Below the pieces are notes generated by a model, which saw nothing but the letters and a program-made list of their open reading frames with translations, was not told where the DNA came from and did no database searches. Below, one piece after another: positions 4,011-13,408 of a DNA stretch of 31,691 bases. This DNA is from a virus, in the IMG/VR virus record IMGVR_UViG_3300042905_004909, positions 1 through 31,691 of that record. The stretch is one strand, 5' to 3'. Both the position numbers and the translations under genes were made by a program. Every line of letters starts with the position of its first letter. Within the stretch, counting starts at the first letter, position 1.

Positions 4011-6611
4011 ATGAAAGTGGAAAATGTCGAAGAGGCTCTAGGTAGTCTCAGGTCCCATCTCTTTACCTATATGATAGAAGAGGGGATTTATCAGTCTGAT
4101 AGTCCGAAACCTCGAGACTATTTCCTATGTCCCAATCCCAATCATAAGGAAACAGGTGCATCAGCTCATCTTTTAAGCTCAGGCATAAAAGGTTATTGCC
4201 ATGGATGCAACAGGACTTTTGATATACTGACACTAAATCATTGGAAGAATGGCGCTCCAATTTCTGGAGCTGGTTTTATTACCAATAATTTAATGCCATT
4301 ATGCCAGCGTTTCAATGTACCCTTTGAGCTTGGTGATCTGACAGAAGAAGACAGATTCAAGATTGATGCTTATCATGCATGTCGTATTGCTGCTGACTAT
4401 ATAGCTAATCAGCCATGGTCCGATCCTCTCAAAGCTTATGTGGAAGAACGTGGGTTGACCATCCCGTTCTGTAAATCCATGGGGATCGGTACAATTCCTG
4501 ACTATCAAAAGTTTGAAGACTTTATGAAGGAGAAGTACACGACTGTATTTCTTCGGGAAGCAAGCTTTCTAAGACCAGGAATGTTTGGGGCCAATAATGT
4601 AATCTTCCCGATTAAGGATACTTCTGGTGCCCCTGTAGGCTTTATTTCCAGGGATCTTAAATGGGAAGAGAAGCATAAGGCCTGGGTCGACAAGGGCAAG
4701 CTTGGAGCCCCTCCACGAAAGTATGATTCTACAAGTGAAACAAATAGAATTTACTTTAAGCGTGATCTCCTCTTCGGCTTGTCTGATGCAATACAGTCCA
4801 AGAATGAAGATGAGCCTCTTTATATTTTTGAAGGACAATTTGACTGGGCTATTGCTTTGGCAAATGGTCTGAAGAATTGTATTGCCCTTGGTGGCAAAGT
4901 TCTGACTCCACAACATCTGACCATCTTGAGGAAGTATAAGTTTAGCCACTTAGTTCTCGTTCTTGATGGTGATAATAGTGGGCGGACGGCAACACGAGAG
5001 CTGCTATTAGGGACCAAAGAAGCTCCGGGGATGTTGACATCAGCAACCTTTTTCAAGGTATCAGTTGTAACTCTCCCAGAGAATGAAGACCCCAATTCGT
5101 TTATTCGAGTTAAGGGTATTGAGGCCTTTACTGCTCTCCCCCTGGTTGATTCTTTCACTTGGGCTCTTGGCAATCAAGATGCCGACCAAGATCCTGTCAA
5201 GACTTGCGAAATAATGATTCCATTCATCCTCTCTGAATCTAATGTGATTCGCAGAGAGCAAATGATTCGAGTCCTCTCGGAGGCCACTGGCAGCTCGATA
5301 AGGGCGATTGAAGATGAGTTGATACGCCGTGCTGATGTATCTGCTTCTGAGGTCGAGAGAGAGAAGCAGGCTATCGCAGAAGACCTGATTCGACAGCTTC
5401 AGTATAAAGATGGAGCCAGTGAGCAAATTCTCCGAGTAGCGCTAGAGCGAATGGAAGAAGTCGATAAGATTCGGACGTTGGATCCGTTGAGTGTTGATGA
5501 AACTCTTTCTGCTCTTGATATGCAAATTGAACAAGAAGCTACACTCGAAGGTCCTTCAGGATTTAGATTCAAGCGTCTTACTAATTTGCAAACTGCTTTG
5601 AATGGTGACGTGAAGGGAACTGTTCTGGCTATTGGTGGTGTCCCGAATACTGGCAAGTCAGCCTTGATGTCTCAATTGGCAGATGAGTTGGTTGAGTGCA
5701 ATGAAGATAGCGTAGTCATTCTGCATACTATTGACGACAACCGTATTCAAATGAATAGACGGTTAGCTGTACAGTTTGCAGTGCAGGAAGCTATCCGCAT
5801 CGGTTCTCCAATGGCAGAGAAGCTTACTCTGAATAAGATGGCCAATCCGAAATTCTGGATTGAGCAATATCCAACTGAGCATAAGGACCTGATGGAGTTG
5901 CGTGACTTTGGCTATGACAGACTTCGTCACTTCATCAAGGAGGAGCGCCTTCATATCAAAGACATGACTCATGGTGCGACTATTGTCTTCTTAGAGAAGA
6001 TGGTGAAGAGGGCTGTTGCTGATTATCCTGGTAAACGGATTGTTGTCATTTTAGATAACTTCCATAAGACGCAAGACTTTGCCACTCAGGATGAACGTAC
6101 AGCCACTAAGCGCAAGTCTCAGTTCTTGAAGACTAATATAGCACAGGGATATGGTGTGACTATTTTCTCTACCTTTGAATATAAGAAGATCGAGACTGGC
6201 AATCGCCCAACGAATAATGATCTGAGAGAAGCTGTTAATATTGAATACGATATTAACTACTTGGAGCATTTGTTCAATCCGCTGAAGGCTGCCAGAGATA
6301 CAGGCAATGAGGAGAAGTGCTTATTGTGGCATGGACATCCTTTGAATAAGCTTCCTATTATCGAGGGGAGTGTGGGTAAGAACAAGGTTAATGACTTAAC
6401 GCCAACTCATTACTATAAGTTCTATCCGGCACAATCTAGATATGAGGTAGTAAGTCCAGAAGAAGCTATGGCAATTATAGAATCAAATAGAATTGATGTA
6501 GCTCGAGAGGAAGGAAGGTCTGTGGTTTGGAAGGGCGGAAAGAAGATTGAAGTCCCCCAGGAAACAGGCCTCACACGTTTAACGGGGATGGACGATGTCA
6601 TTCCATTCTAA
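4011..6611 (+). CDS. Bifunctional DNA primase-helicase (T7 gp4-like architecture)
   Basis: An 866-residue protein that should synthesise primers and unwind DNA at the fork. The N-terminal zinc-binding primase domain has C40, H45, C63 and C66 (CPNPNH and CHGC). A TOPRIM fold follows, with YIFEGQFD near 270-279 (catalytic Glu) and LVLDGDNSGR near 316-324 (metal aspartates). After a linker comes a RecA-like DnaB-class helicase domain, with Walker A GGVPNTGKSA near 542-551 and a Walker B ending in ILDN near 678-682. Primase and helicase on one chain are known from T7 gp4 and relatives. The extreme C-terminus is GMDDVIPF, strikingly like the SSB C-terminal peptide. It starts 3 bases after the preceding stop in the replication operon. 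Function is secure. Confidence 0.93.
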   Translation: MKVENVEEALGSLRSHLFTYMIEEGIYQSDSPKPRDYFLCPNPNHKETGASAHLLSSGIKGYCHGCNRTFDILTLNHWKNGAPISGAGFITNNLMPLCQRFNVPFELGDLTEEDRFKIDAYHACRIAADYIANQPWSDPLKAYVEERGLTIPFCKSMGIGTIPDYQKFEDFMKEKYTTVFLREASFLRPGMFGANNVIFPIKDTSGAPVGFISRDLKWEEKHKAWVDKGKLGAPPRKYDSTSETNRIYFKRDLLFGLSDAIQSKNEDEPLYIFEGQFDWAIALANGLKNCIALGGKVLTPQHLTILRKYKFSHLVLVLDGDNSGRTATRELLLGTKEAPGMLTSATFFKVSVVTLPENEDPNSFIRVKGIEAFTALPLVDSFTWALGNQDADQDPVKTCEIMIPFILSESNVIRREQMIRVLSEATGSSIRAIEDELIRRADVSASEVEREKQAIAEDLIRQLQYKDGASEQILRVALERMEEVDKIRTLDPLSVDETLSALDMQIEQEATLEGPSGFRFKRLTNLQTALNGDVKGTVLAIGGVPNTGKSALMSQLADELVECNEDSVVILHTIDDNRIQMNRRLAVQFAVQEAIRIGSPMAEKLTLNKMANPKFWIEQYPTEHKDLMELRDFGYDRLRHFIKEERLHIKDMTHGATIVFLEKMVKRAVADYPGKRIVVILDNFHKTQDFATQDERTATKRKSQFLKTNIAQGYGVTIFSTFEYKKIETGNRPTNNDLREAVNIEYDINYLEHLFNPLKAARDTGNEEKCLLWHGHPLNKLPIIEGSVGKNKVNDLTPTHYYKFYPAQSRYEVVSPEEAMAIIESNRIDVAREEGRSVVWKGGKKIEVPQETGLTRLTGMDDVIPF

Positions 6612-9416: not shown

Positions 9417-9754
9417 TGAAAGAACCGGTCATTTTATCCCCTGATGATGATCATGTTTGGACCGCTGATGAGATGCTATCTCTCGTGGATTCCATTCGAT
9501 GGTTTCGTGGTATCGGCACTGAAGTCCGTAAAGCTCAGTTTATTGCCGACGAAGTTCCTAGATATAATTTGTCTGATGAGTTGTTCAATGTACTCGAGAG
9601 CCTCCAATCTATGGATGGAGTTGATGAAGAGATATTGGTCTACGCCTCTGACTATGATGAGCATTGGACATGGAAGATACTTCCGAGTCCTTTAGCTTTT
9701 GCGGTATGGCAAAATGTCAATCGGTGCCGATCTTCTTCGGATCCAGCTGCTTAA
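9416..9754 (+). CDS. Small acidic unknown protein
   Basis: A 112-residue protein whose ATG shares a base with the stop of the iron-sulfur gene (TAATG at 9414-9418). Its 3' 41 bases overlap the next gene in another frame. It is acidic and Asp/Glu/Trp-rich (SPDDDHVWTADEML near the start, YASDYDEHWTW near 76-86). No family recognised. Other frames across this stretch are also open but less protein-like. The overlap-coupled start favours this frame. Confidence 0.6.
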   Translation: MKEPVILSPDDDHVWTADEMLSLVDSIRWFRGIGTEVRKAQFIADEVPRYNLSDELFNVLESLQSMDGVDEEILVYASDYDEHWTWKILPSPLAFAVWQNVNRCRSSSDPAA

Positions 9755-10232
9755 TATTTTTGGCAGCGGTTTACGTATAGAGCCTGAATTCCAAGTAGGG
9801 GAAAGTCTCCGTCTTGATTATTATCTCCCTGATTATAAACTAGGGATTGAGTGGCACGGGCGCCAACATAAAGAGTTCGTAGAACACTTCCATAGAACTG
9901 CCGATGGCTTTAGAGATGCACAGAGAAGAGATAGACGTAAGTTAGAACTCTGTGCAGAAAAAGGAATTGCTGTAGCAGTCTTTTGGGATGACGAAGAAAT
10001 AACTCAAGAGATAATAGTTGAGCGCATAAAGGGTGCAACTTCAGAAGAGAATACTCTGGAAGAAGAAACGATAAAGAATCCCCTGAGGGAAAAGATTCGC
10101 GAAGCAGCCAAAGCTCAATATCAGAAGTATAAACAATCTGAAGCTCATAGAGCTTATTTAGAGAAGGCCCGTAAAGCCAGGAAGGAACAGTATGAATATT
10201 CCAAGCAAAGGAAAAATAAGGATAAAAATTAA
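9714..10232 (+). CDS. Vsr/DUF559-like PD-(D/E)xK endonuclease, possibly a free-standing homing endonuclease
   Basis: A 172-residue protein from ATG 9714; a TTG at 9699 is an in-frame alternative. Residues about 30-95 hold a very-short-patch-repair-like nuclease core: LRLDYYLPDYKLGIEWHGRQ with D35, D40 and E46 followed by WHGRQH, then a basic helix (RRDRRKLELC) and the hydrophobic strand AVAVFW. Such cores occur in DUF559-type proteins and in the Vsr-related homing endonucleases of phages. The C-terminal 60 residues are extremely charged, rich in Lys, Arg, Glu, Gln and Tyr, and would form long DNA-contacting helices. The start overlaps the preceding gene by 41 bases without a strong ribosome site. 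The nuclease call is fairly firm; mobility is inference. Confidence 0.7.
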   Translation: MSIGADLLRIQLLNIFGSGLRIEPEFQVGESLRLDYYLPDYKLGIEWHGRQHKEFVEHFHRTADGFRDAQRRDRRKLELCAEKGIAVAVFWDDEEITQEIIVERIKGATSEENTLEEETIKNPLREKIREAAKAQYQKYKQSEAHRAYLEKARKARKEQYEYSKQRKNKDKN

Positions 10233-10542
10233 TACATTACATATGTATGCTCCAATAATTAAATCTATTGTAGCTTCTTTTTATCCTGTCCAAGATGTTG
10301 ATTATCCCTGGGGCCCCTGGATAGCATGGCCATATGGATCTTTCGAACGTGGTCAGAAAGTTCTTATTTCTACTCCTTCTGCCCTTGGTCCAGAGGATCA
10401 TGAATCTATAGAAGGTGTTTTTGATTCTGAAGAAACGCCAACCGAAATTACTATGAAGATTGGCGAAGAGATTGGTCGGCACTATGGGGTAACCCCGTGG
10501 GGGGCTGATCGCGTCTGCTCTATTGAGGTTAATAGGACGTAA
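10192..10542 (+). CDS. Unknown protein
   Basis: A 116-residue protein. I chose ATG 10192 because AGGAAGGA at 10179-10186 lies 5 bases upstream, although this start overlaps the preceding gene by 41 bases; an ATG at 10243 has no such site. The N-terminus is basic (SKGKIRIKI). The middle is aromatic (DVDYPWGPWIAWPYGSF) and the rest is mixed, with an acidic loop (DSEETPTEITMKIGEEIG). The Trp/Pro/Gly-rich middle suggests a small globular beta fold. No family recognised, and the neighbours give no specific clue. Confidence 0.6.
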   Translation: MNIPSKGKIRIKINTLHMYAPIIKSIVASFYPVQDVDYPWGPWIAWPYGSFERGQKVLISTPSALGPEDHESIEGVFDSEETPTEITMKIGEEIGRHYGVTPWGADRVCSIEVNRT

Positions 10543-10545
10543 GCT

Positions 10546-11031
10546 ATGGAAATCAAAGGCTGGCATCGTAGATTTTTAGGAAATACTTCGTCAGCTATTT
10601 GGCATGTTGATCGTCGAATGGGTAAAGACTTTATTACGGTCTTAGATCTGGTGAAGTATCAGAGACCTGTTGTTGTATTGCCCGATGAATCTTTTAGAGT
10701 GTTTCAGGCGAGATGTACTCTCCTCTACTCTACCATTAAGAATATGCAGATTGAATTGGTCCCTGCATCACATCTTGATGATCTAACATTAGCAGATGCG
10801 TATAAAACAGCGGATGCTTTGTACTTCCTCGAATACTCTTTGTATCCGAAAGAGATCCGAAAATTCATTCTAGAGAGCGCAAAGGACATAGAGTTCTCTT
10901 ACAGTCTCTTGAAGATCCGTGCTCAAAATTTATTTCCTGTCCATATTGTAGGTTCTCATAATGAAGAAGAGCTGAAGACTCTTTCTGAGCTTTTGAATAT
11001 GCCAGTGAACAGAGTGTTAAAAGATTACTAA
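10546..11031 (+). CDS. Small degenerate P-loop-like protein (terminase/helicase-like core)
   Basis: A 161-residue protein starting 3 bases after the previous stop. Residues 16-30 read SAIWHVDRRMGKDFI, resembling the deviant Walker A of terminase or helicase ATPases (R-x-x-GK[T/S]) but with Asp where Thr or Ser is needed. The strand PVVVLPDESFRVFQA at 41-55 resembles the next core strand of such ATPases. ALYFLEYSLYP at 91-101 sits where a Walker B (hhhhDE) would be, but keeps only the Glu. At 161 residues it is far shorter than a terminase and has no nuclease part. I read it as an inactivated or highly derived ATPase fold; that is a pattern judgement. It may be an unrelated protein. Confidence 0.5.
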   Translation: MEIKGWHRRFLGNTSSAIWHVDRRMGKDFITVLDLVKYQRPVVVLPDESFRVFQARCTLLYSTIKNMQIELVPASHLDDLTLADAYKTADALYFLEYSLYPKEIRKFILESAKDIEFSYSLLKIRAQNLFPVHIVGSHNEEELKTLSELLNMPVNRVLKDY

Positions 11032-11273
11032 TGGAATTTGAACTCATAACAAGAGAGAGCGAAAGAGATCCCTACTGGGTTCACTGTACCTCTATGAATT
11101 TCCTTCAGCCTCAAGGGGTAAATACCTTCTGGCTTAGTGGCAAGCCTTACTACCGTACATCAGATTTAAATATGCTGAATAAAATAGTCCCTAGAGAAGC
11201 TTCTTACGCTTGGGTCAATAGTGAGAATTGTGCATATTCATTTTTGGTAGGACATGGGTGGTCAAAGATATGA
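11031..11273 (+). CDS. Small unknown protein
   Basis: An 80-residue protein whose ATG shares a base with the previous stop (TAATG). It is aromatic-rich, with Trp, Tyr and Phe spread throughout (DPYWVHCTSMNFLQ, then FWLSGKPYYRTSDL and YAWVNSENCAYSFLVGHGW). No membrane segment or metal site is clear. No family recognised. Its stop overlaps the ATG of a 19-codon ORF. Confidence 0.6.
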   Translation: MEFELITRESERDPYWVHCTSMNFLQPQGVNTFWLSGKPYYRTSDLNMLNKIVPREASYAWVNSENCAYSFLVGHGWSKI

Positions 11274-11329
11274 AGTGTGCCAAATGCAATATGCCTATTG
11301 TAGATAGAGGCCGGGAATTGGATGATTGA
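11270..11329 (+). CDS. 19-residue CxxC mini-ORF, possibly a truncated zinc-knuckle gene
   Basis: ATG 11270 overlaps the stop of the preceding gene (ATGA), and the frame reads MKCAKCNMPIVDRGRELDD before TGA 11327-11329. The CxxC start looks like the first half of a small zinc-ribbon protein whose second half is missing. This may be debris of rearrangement around the neighbouring homing endonuclease, or a functional micropeptide coupled to translation of the gene upstream. There is no evidence of expression beyond the overlap. Confidence 0.3.
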   Translation: MKCAKCNMPIVDRGRELDD

Positions 11330-11366
11330 ATTTCTACTTGAGATAGATCCTATTCCACAGCCATAA
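11322..11366 (+). pseudogene. Orphan 5' fragment of a rusA gene
   Basis: ATG 11322 to TAA 11364-11366 encodes MIEFLLEIDPIPQP. The intact RusA that follows the endonuclease gene starts MIQFDLQVTAIPQPRPKARR. The two share M-I-x-F-x-L-x-(I/V)-x-x-I-P-Q-P, ending at the same Pro, after which the fragment runs into a stop. RusA proteins characteristically begin with a strand leading into IPQPRPR-type sequence, so I read this as a remnant 5' end separated from the rest by arrival of the GIY-YIG gene. The DNA of the two copies differs at many positions, so it is not a recent exact duplication. Confidence 0.55.
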
Positions 11367-11408
11367 TCTCTGTTATTGTAATATTGATACTTTAATGGAG
11401 GTTAGCTA

Positions 11409-12101
11409 ATGGCAAGTGGTGTCTATATCATTCGATGTTTTTCTAATGATAAATTCTATGTTGGAAGTGCAGTAGATTTGGAAGATCGTTTTAAGCGTCA
11501 TAAAAGAATGTTGATGGGGAATTACCATCATAATAAACATCTTCAAAATGCCTGGAACAAGTATGGAGAAGAGGTCTTTGCCTTCGAAATACTAGAAGAG
11601 GTTCCTAATTTTCTAGAACAAGAACAATACTGGATTGATAAATTAGAAGCTTGTTTATTGGGTTTCAATATTTTGCCAACTGCGGGATCTACATTAGGTC
11701 ATCAACATAGTGAAGAAACTAAAAGATTAATTTCTGAGAAAAATAAAGAACGTAATTTAGTTGGTGAGAACAATCCCTTTTATGGACAAATGCATACTGA
11801 AGAGAAGAAAGTGCATTGGTCTAAGGCTAGAAAAGGTCAGCAGGCTGGTGAAGCAAATCCCTTTTACGGACGACACCATACTGATGAGTCAAAAGAGAAA
11901 CGCCGTCAAACTTTTAAAGATAGAGGCATCTCTTATCTAGGCGAGAAGAATCCAGCTGCAAAATTAACCTGGACTACAGTTGGTGAACTTAGAGAATTAT
12001 ATTCTTCTGGTTCTTATACTTATAAAGATCTAGCTACTAAATATGGTATTTCTGTTGATCTGGTCGGAAAGGTTATTCGTGAGGAGAAGTGGGTTAAGTG
12101 A
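11409..12101 (+). CDS. GIY-YIG homing endonuclease with NUMOD3 repeats
   Basis: A 230-residue protein of the free-standing Seg/I-TevI class. The GIY-YIG nuclease domain covers about 1-95: GVYIIRC at 4-10, KFYVGSA at 15-21, an Arg in the DRFKRH helix, and a Glu in FLEQEQYW. It is followed by NUMOD3-type DNA-contact modules (GHQHSEETKRLIS, GENNPFYGQMHTEEK, GEANPFYGRHHTDES, GEKNPAAKL) and a C-terminal helix-turn-helix (YKDLATKYGISVDLVGKVI). A GGAGG at 11397-11401 lies 7 bases before the ATG. The stop overlaps the GTG start of rusA. It probably cuts a specific site in related phages lacking the gene and promotes its own copying. All catalytic features look intact. Confidence 0.9.
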   Translation: MASGVYIIRCFSNDKFYVGSAVDLEDRFKRHKRMLMGNYHHNKHLQNAWNKYGEEVFAFEILEEVPNFLEQEQYWIDKLEACLLGFNILPTAGSTLGHQHSEETKRLISEKNKERNLVGENNPFYGQMHTEEKKVHWSKARKGQQAGEANPFYGRHHTDESKEKRRQTFKDRGISYLGEKNPAAKLTWTTVGELRELYSSGSYTYKDLATKYGISVDLVGKVIREEKWVK

Positions 12102-12565
12102 TACAGTTCGATTTACAAGTTACAGCGATTCCTCAGCCCCGCCCCAAGGCTAGACGCATTGGTCCAGGCATACAAATCTATACACCCAATAGTGGCCCTA
12201 TTAAGCTCTATAAGGCTGCTATCGCTGAAGCCTTTAAACGGGTAGCGGGAGAGGACTTTGGCCCCTTAAAGGGGCCTTTACTGCTCTCTGTTCTATTTGT
12301 CTTTGAGAGACCCTATGCTCGTATGAAAGAAGAGGCACATATTATAAAGCCTGACTTGGATAATTTAGCCAAGGGGGTAATGGATGCCTTGAATGGAATT
12401 GCGTGGCATGATGACTCGCAGATTGTTTCTCTTACATTAGGTAAGGATTGGGCGGCGACTCATCTCGGTGGAAAGTCTGGACGCAAACTAGAATCTGGTG
12501 TGTCTTATATCTTTGTAGAGATCAAGACAAAAGAAGAAGCGGTAAATACCTTGACTGATTCCTAA
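12098..12565 (+). CDS. rusA: RusA-family Holliday junction resolvase
   Basis: A 155-residue protein starting at GTG 12098, which overlaps the stop of the homing endonuclease (GTGA); GAGGAGAAG at 12081-12089 is the ribosome site. RusA hallmarks are present: the N-terminal IPQPRPKARR, then KPDLDNLAKGVMDAL (D86, D88, N89, K92) and the acidic WHDDSQI (D105, D106). These match the metal-binding aspartates and the lysine of E. coli RusA. The family resolves four-way junctions as a dimer, in phages usually to debranch replicating or recombining DNA before packaging. The length is slightly above the usual 120-130 residues because of a C-terminal tail. A second, truncated rusA 5' end lies upstream of the endonuclease gene. 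Confidence 0.9.
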   Translation: MIQFDLQVTAIPQPRPKARRIGPGIQIYTPNSGPIKLYKAAIAEAFKRVAGEDFGPLKGPLLLSVLFVFERPYARMKEEAHIIKPDLDNLAKGVMDALNGIAWHDDSQIVSLTLGKDWAATHLGGKSGRKLESGVSYIFVEIKTKEEAVNTLTDS

Positions 12566-12604
12566 CCCATTGATATTCTTGTCGTTGATGCGGCAAGGAT
12601 ATAT

Positions 12605-13408
12605 ATGGAATTAGTCAAAGAAAAAGATAAAGCCCTAAATAAGCCTGTCCATAATGTGGACATTCAACGCGTTGACGAACTTGTTGCCATTTACATTAAT
12701 GGTTCCAAGAAGGAACGCGCACAAGCTCAGAAAGAGATACTTGAATACTTCAACGAGTATTTGGAGAAGTACGTGAATCTCTTTGCTGGGTCTCAAGTTG
12801 ATTTGAACAATTATGACACTAAGGGCTTTCTGGCTATGTTTCTTACAGGCCGCCCAAAGACCCCCTCGAATCTCGCACAACAACGTTCCTATATAGCTAA
12901 TGTAATGAGCCGGTTCACTCGTGATGACATCAAGAACGAACTTATTGTTTTGTTCTTGGGTGTATTAGACAAGTACCGTATCTATCCTGGAGTCAATGCT
13001 CTTAACCCCCTGACGAAATTCTTTCGGTACAGAACCAAGGATTGGTTTAATCGTATCGTTAAAGATGCTTTGTTCAGAGTCGTAGACATCGAACAAATTT
13101 CTGGGACTAAAGATGACTCAAGAGATAAGTTTACTTTAGAAGGTTGGCTGGATATCTTGGACCCCATTACTGTTGATTTTGAAGAGGGTTTAGCTCAGTT
13201 AGATATAACTTGGGTGCGTAATCCTTCGCAAAAAATGTATCAGTCTCTTTCAACTTATGAACGCTATCTACTGTTCTTAACTTTTAATCAGGACTTGGGA
13301 GTAGCCCAAATTGCTGAGAAGTTAGAAAGAGATAAGGACACAATTAAGAGGCATCTTGCTACTATCTTGGAAAAGATAGGAGGTCTATACAAGGATGGAT
13401 CAAAATGA
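12605..13408 (+). CDS. RNA polymerase sigma-factor-like protein
   Basis: A 267-residue protein with AAGGA at 12595-12599, 5 bases before the ATG. The C-terminus (about 213-258) is a sigma region 4-type helix-turn-helix: LSTYERYLLFLTFNQDLGVAQIAEKLERDKDTIKR and onward has the usual pattern in which an ERxxLxL helix is followed by (I/V)AxxL and a recognition helix. Residues about 105-158 (DDIKNELIVLFLGVLDKYRI, then FFRYRTKDWFNRIV) resemble region 2, which binds core polymerase and the -10 element. If this is right, it would redirect host polymerase to phage promoters, perhaps the late virion operon. No matching promoter consensus was identified in the window. A non-sigma DNA-binding protein is the alternative. 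Confidence 0.6.
   Translation: MELVKEKDKALNKPVHNVDIQRVDELVAIYINGSKKERAQAQKEILEYFNEYLEKYVNLFAGSQVDLNNYDTKGFLAMFLTGRPKTPSNLAQQRSYIANVMSRFTRDDIKNELIVLFLGVLDKYRIYPGVNALNPLTKFFRYRTKDWFNRIVKDALFRVVDIEQISGTKDDSRDKFTLEGWLDILDPITVDFEEGLAQLDITWVRNPSQKMYQSLSTYERYLLFLTFNQDLGVAQIAEKLERDKDTIKRHLATILEKIGGLYKDGSK

Follow-up and report, generated by a model that had tools for sequence, protein, structure and literature searches.

A free-standing GIY-YIG endonuclease gene that probably invaded the 5′ end of a phage rusA and brought a replacement for it

How can an endonuclease gene come to lie between two versions of the 5′ end of one gene and leave that gene complete? The locus raising this question lies in a 31.7-kb DNA-phage fragment (the window, meaning the whole stretch of DNA analysed), in which a rusA stub, a GIY-YIG endonuclease gene and a complete rusA follow one another in this order:

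11270–11329, + strand: 19-codon ORF, MKCAKCNMPIVDRGRELDD, read from the sequence; its 3′ end, with the stop codon, shares 8 nt with the beginning of the stub
11322–11366, + strand: rusA stub, MIEFLLEIDPIPQP, ATG at 11322 and TAA at 11364–11366; 8 of 14 residues as in the RusA N-terminus
11367–11408, + strand: left edge of the insert, 42 nt, non-coding, with the ribosome binding site GGAGG at 11397–11401
11409–12101, + strand: GIY-YIG homing endonuclease, 230 aa (Pfam, PHROG, repeats, alignment with homologues)
11762–11895, + strand: two NUMOD3 repeats within the endonuclease (repeat analysis)
12098–12139, + strand: the putatively rebuilt first 14 codons of rusA, with a GTG start, reading MIQFDLQVTAIPQP (comparison with the stub)
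12098–12565, + strand: complete rusA (Holliday junction resolvase), 155 aa (Pfam RusA, E = 9.2e-22)
12605–13408, + strand: sigma-factor-like gene 3′ of rusA, the synteny anchor, 47–55% identical in the related contigs L013, L016 and L019

The GTG of rusA at 12098 overlaps the TGA of the endonuclease gene (GTGA, 12098–12101). Two more contigs have the same arrangement, with an identity of 99.98%, so that they represent the same phage and add no independent support.

The ORF at 11409–12101 is a GIY-YIG homing endonuclease whose cleavage activity is predicted. It carries the catalytic domain (PF01541, E = 5.9e-13), and an alignment with intron-encoded and free-standing homologues shows that GVY...YVG, R27, E72 and N87 are kept in them. 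The two repeats provide the DNA-binding module (NUMOD3, PF07460, E = 3e-14) and are accompanied by a helix-turn-helix-like region at the C-terminus; in this alignment the protein resembles the intron-encoded enzymes of the I-TevI type. The downstream gene encodes a RusA domain (PF05866, phrog_140) and retains its full-length reading frame despite the insertion.

The two N-termini share 8 of 14 residues with a BLOSUM62 score of 43. Although 14 codons make a short comparison, the next best of the 1608 open start sites that the two strands of the window contain scores 32, and shuffling of residues reaches 43 with p about 1e-5. The initial annotation had proposed that two versions of the rusA 5′ end flank the endonuclease, and the coordinates, the shared residues and the gap between these two scores confirm it. 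At the DNA level 21 of 42 nt agree, with 10 of 13 in the last third at ATTCCnCAGCC; past CAGCC the sequences part, the stub running into its TAA and rusA into the conserved RPKARR. This level of agreement points to an old or foreign pair and makes a fresh duplication an unlikely reading. Compared with the RusA proteins of three relatives both ends show equal resemblance, as the stub matches 5, 5 and 5 of the 14 residues and the rebuilt end 4, 4 and 6. The donor of the rebuilt end was not found, and the stub joined to the rusA body as a single query retrieved distant RusA only.

Relatives were found via the primase-helicase and the sigma-like gene and fall into three lineages (L013/L014, L016 and L019/L021). 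Their genes follow one another as nuclease-like gene, small gene, rusA, sigma-like gene and AAA ATPase in each case, and in all three rusA is single and uninterrupted, with neither a GIY-YIG gene upstream nor a stub. The uninterrupted rusA that the initial annotation had suggested looking for is thus found between the same neighbours in each lineage, and the arrangement it had named as contrary to its proposal, a 14-codon ORF and a complete rusA as separate genes in an uninvaded relative, was looked for in these three lineages and not seen. The window RusA is 41–48% identical to the syntenic RusA of L013, L016 and L019, and with relatives about 40–55% identical the empty site is visible at the level of the gene, not of the base. 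A search of the two long relative contigs for a relative of the window GIY-YIG protein gave nothing. In L013 and L019 the start of rusA overlaps the stop of the preceding gene, and since the stub overlaps the 19-codon ORF in the same way, it seems to lie where rusA started ancestrally. The sigma-like gene, conserved across the clade, has no match among annotated phages, and RusA queries against bacterial genomes returned no relative.

The neighbourhood has further features of its own. Directly upstream, 10546–11329 comprises two genes and the 19-codon ORF, which contains Cys; this region is missing from the syntenic relatives, and its 161-aa gene is carried by the near-identical contigs only. 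A Vsr/HNH-endonuclease-like ORF (phrog_559) at 9699–10232 of the window lies upstream of rusA in all relatives too. In L013 (3771–8343), and also in L014, DNA polymerase III alpha is interrupted twice, at 4667–5427 and 6020–7210 of L013, the first gap containing a weak group I intron match (RF00028, 5070–5419, 27.6 bits, below gathering).

A scan for GIY-YIG relatives yielded 80 loci, each of which was tested for likeness between its two flanks, and the matches were then read. In an unrelated phage (L101, L102, L104 and L105) the GIY-YIG frame begins MMQIDLPYPPSSNR, a stub of the RusA N-terminus in frame with the endonuclease. A RecT-like gene precedes this frame, and a complete rusA (MITIELPYPISSNRYW...) follows the endonuclease with a 4-base ATGA overlap. 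The break in RusA is no more than about three alignment columns away from that in the window, and the endonucleases of the two phages do not group in a tree that is itself poorly resolved. By these sequence comparisons the four loci are an independent second RusA case. Together with the uninterrupted rusA of the relatives, this repeat near the same position gives good support to the earlier proposal of an insertion just behind codon 14 or so and of a new rusA start 3′ of the insert. Separately, the annotated endonuclease gene of phage ctjLE16 (L119, 986–1848) overlaps the rusA start by 13 nt, and no stub was seen there.

Other genes show the same layout. At L044 and L049 a stub of 30–31 codons is followed by the GIY-YIG gene and a complete Holliday junction resolvase gene, 46% identical to that of Streptococcus phage Dp-1. 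A 10-residue PTH2 stub is found at L065 (the score is borderline, the gene correct), and at L050/51/53 a stub of ~40 codons belongs to a gene of unknown function. Mirror-image loci, in which the complete gene precedes the endonuclease and the stub follows it, are L070/75 and L045. The L070/75 stub comprises 62 codons from the gene of an SbcC-like ATPase and starts at the ILDEP Walker B motif; the L045 stub comprises 22 codons from that of a 5-hmdU DNA kinase. The SbcC stub has no match among annotated phages. At L056, L057 and L079 related endonucleases lie behind the same SbcC-like ATPase and no stub accompanies them, as though it has since disappeared; the L056 and L075 endonucleases start with LFILDEP or LFIVDEP, a small remnant of the target ATPase. 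The left edge of the L075 GIY-YIG gene (2944–2985) bears a tandem pair of 19-bp sequences, TATTTATTTTAGATGAGCC and TATTTATTGTAGATGAACC, both degenerate copies of the ATPase target. Among 253 control ORFs of the same loci five reach the borderline score of 39, and the sole one above 45 is glycine-rich. The flank pairs at L063, L078, L092 and L096 were set aside as low-complexity or chance matches, and the GIY-YIG or RusA genes of Segz_1, U9, CP1, Mx4, XapPhi1 and a Klebsiella phage are unrelated to the arrangement.

The resolvase loci also bear on which of the two ends is the replaced one. The uninvaded resolvases of Dp-1 and MS1 read GGKVQPNSGATDYYKGDV; the stubs of L044 and L049 both keep PNSGA, with L044 going on with T, whereas each of the complete copies has VANSGAP where the junction lies. 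The stub hence matches the uninvaded sequence at the diagnostic residues and the complete copy differs, as is expected of a target-proof replacement. The endonucleases of L044 and L049 are related (100/100 support) and the two loci are counted as one event.

The succession of stub, endonuclease and intact rusA, the uninterrupted rusA of the relatives and the lack of an intron (see below) point to an insertion in the rusA 5′ end with a rebuilt start. We consider it likely that a free-standing GIY-YIG gene invaded the 5′ end of rusA and left a stub, with rusA rescued by one-sided homing that supplied a replacement end. In such a model the endonuclease would cut a rusA that is still uninvaded, close to the conserved codons for its N-terminus; GIY-YIG enzymes are able to cut at a distance from the insertion site. 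Homology on the side of rusA would then allow repair to copy the endonuclease gene and the adjoining rusA end of the donor, and the other end of the break would be joined without homology. Cut and rescue would thus take place in a single event with stub, endonuclease and complete rusA as its outcome, and the replaced end, divergent in its DNA, would probably no longer be a target. The donor DNA could include all of rusA, and one-sided homing would give such structures in either orientation.

Three other histories would produce a similar layout. The 14 codons might be the first exon of rusA, with a group I intron or an intein spliced out behind them, and both the resemblance of the endonuclease to I-TevI-type enzymes and the RusA reading obtained when MIEFLLEIDPIPQP is joined to RPKARR would fit. 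However, cmscan of 10400–13400 gave no group I intron match and no credible RNA family, the stub ends in a stop codon, and the downstream rusA is complete alone. With 42 nt between stub and ORF, and an ORF that overlaps rusA, there is no room for a ribozyme core; a group I intron is accordingly rejected, as was an intein carrying the endonuclease, and we regard a spliced first exon as most improbable.

It is also conceivable that rusA was once present in tandem, that one copy decayed to 14 codons and that the endonuclease entered between the two later, with no cut in rusA. The 21 of 42 nt common to the two ends are what old paralogues would show, but no relative has a tandem rusA, the RusA stub of the unrelated phage stops at the same conserved motif, and stub and complete gene surround GIY-YIG genes at five other genes as well, which makes this history unlikely. 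Alternatively, mosaic recombination may have replaced the native rusA with a donor block of endonuclease and whole rusA, the endonuclease being a passenger. The whole of rusA could indeed come from the donor, and a codon-level mosaic comparison gives a weak hint in this direction, as codons 12–31 are closer to L013 (12/18 identical) and L019 (10/19) than the remainder (19/48 and 18/49). This reading leaves unexplained why stubs flank GIY-YIG genes in unrelated phages and genes, and not the 253 control ORFs, and we think it improbable. Invasion of rusA with a replacement end remains our preferred explanation.

Such an invasion combines elements known from other systems. In phage T4, where one-sided homing is described, homology on one side only leads to illegitimate repair at microhomologies on the other side (PMC2988022, citing Parker et al. 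1999). In fungal mitochondria endonuclease ORFs carry a foreign gene end, in a 3′ version (PMC3630166): in the mobile-ORF gene hybrids of Allomyces atp6 and of Glomus atp6, atp9, cox2 and nad3 the ORF brings a divergent end of the invaded gene and a stub remains of the native end, as is proposed here, and the atp9 hybrid involves a GIY-YIG enzyme, as in the window (PMC3630166). Like these hybrids, the window has two versions of a gene end flanking an endonuclease ORF and a full-length host frame that is kept. The fungal hybrids have their carboxy-terminal (3′) end replaced in a mitochondrial genome, whereas the window, a phage sequence, differs in that the 5′ end is concerned (3′ versions being those of L070/75 and L045) and that the start codon of the rebuilt gene overlaps the stop of the endonuclease gene; the locus therefore works like a fungal hybrid and is not one of them.

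Among phage systems, the seg GIY-YIG endonucleases of T4-like phages can be likened to the window, being intron-less, located beside recombination and replication genes and spread by co-conversion, and the review passages on them describe neither a stub nor a rebuilt gene end (PMC2988022). The same passages place Aeh1 mobE in nrdA and T4 mobA in gene 60, inside a functionally critical part of the gene, as here; the host gene stays in pieces in those cases, in contrast to the complete gene restored in the window (PMC2988022). A functional analogy only exists to the home-and-rescue (HomeR) gene drives, whose cassette both cuts an essential gene and supplies a copy of it that resists cutting; unlike the window, they are engineered and Cas9-based (PMC7968924). 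In the openly accessible literature searched, we found no description of a phage case of an endonuclease-borne gene end.

Whether natural cut-and-rescue elements are numerous among the free-standing GIY-YIG endonucleases of phages is in our estimate an even bet; such elements would break conserved genes, in many cases those of recombination, at catalytic codons, with a target-proof replacement of the gene end on one side and a stub on the other. Several of the invaded genes act in recombination (RusA in two cases, another type of Holliday junction resolvase and an SbcC-like ATPase), and homing itself depends on recombination. The stubs would mark the insertion points, and the proposed repair route is testable in phage crosses. 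The locus would thus offer a general answer to how a selfish gene that has neither intron nor intein may insert itself into the coding sequence of a conserved gene in a phage, namely by bringing the replacement with it.
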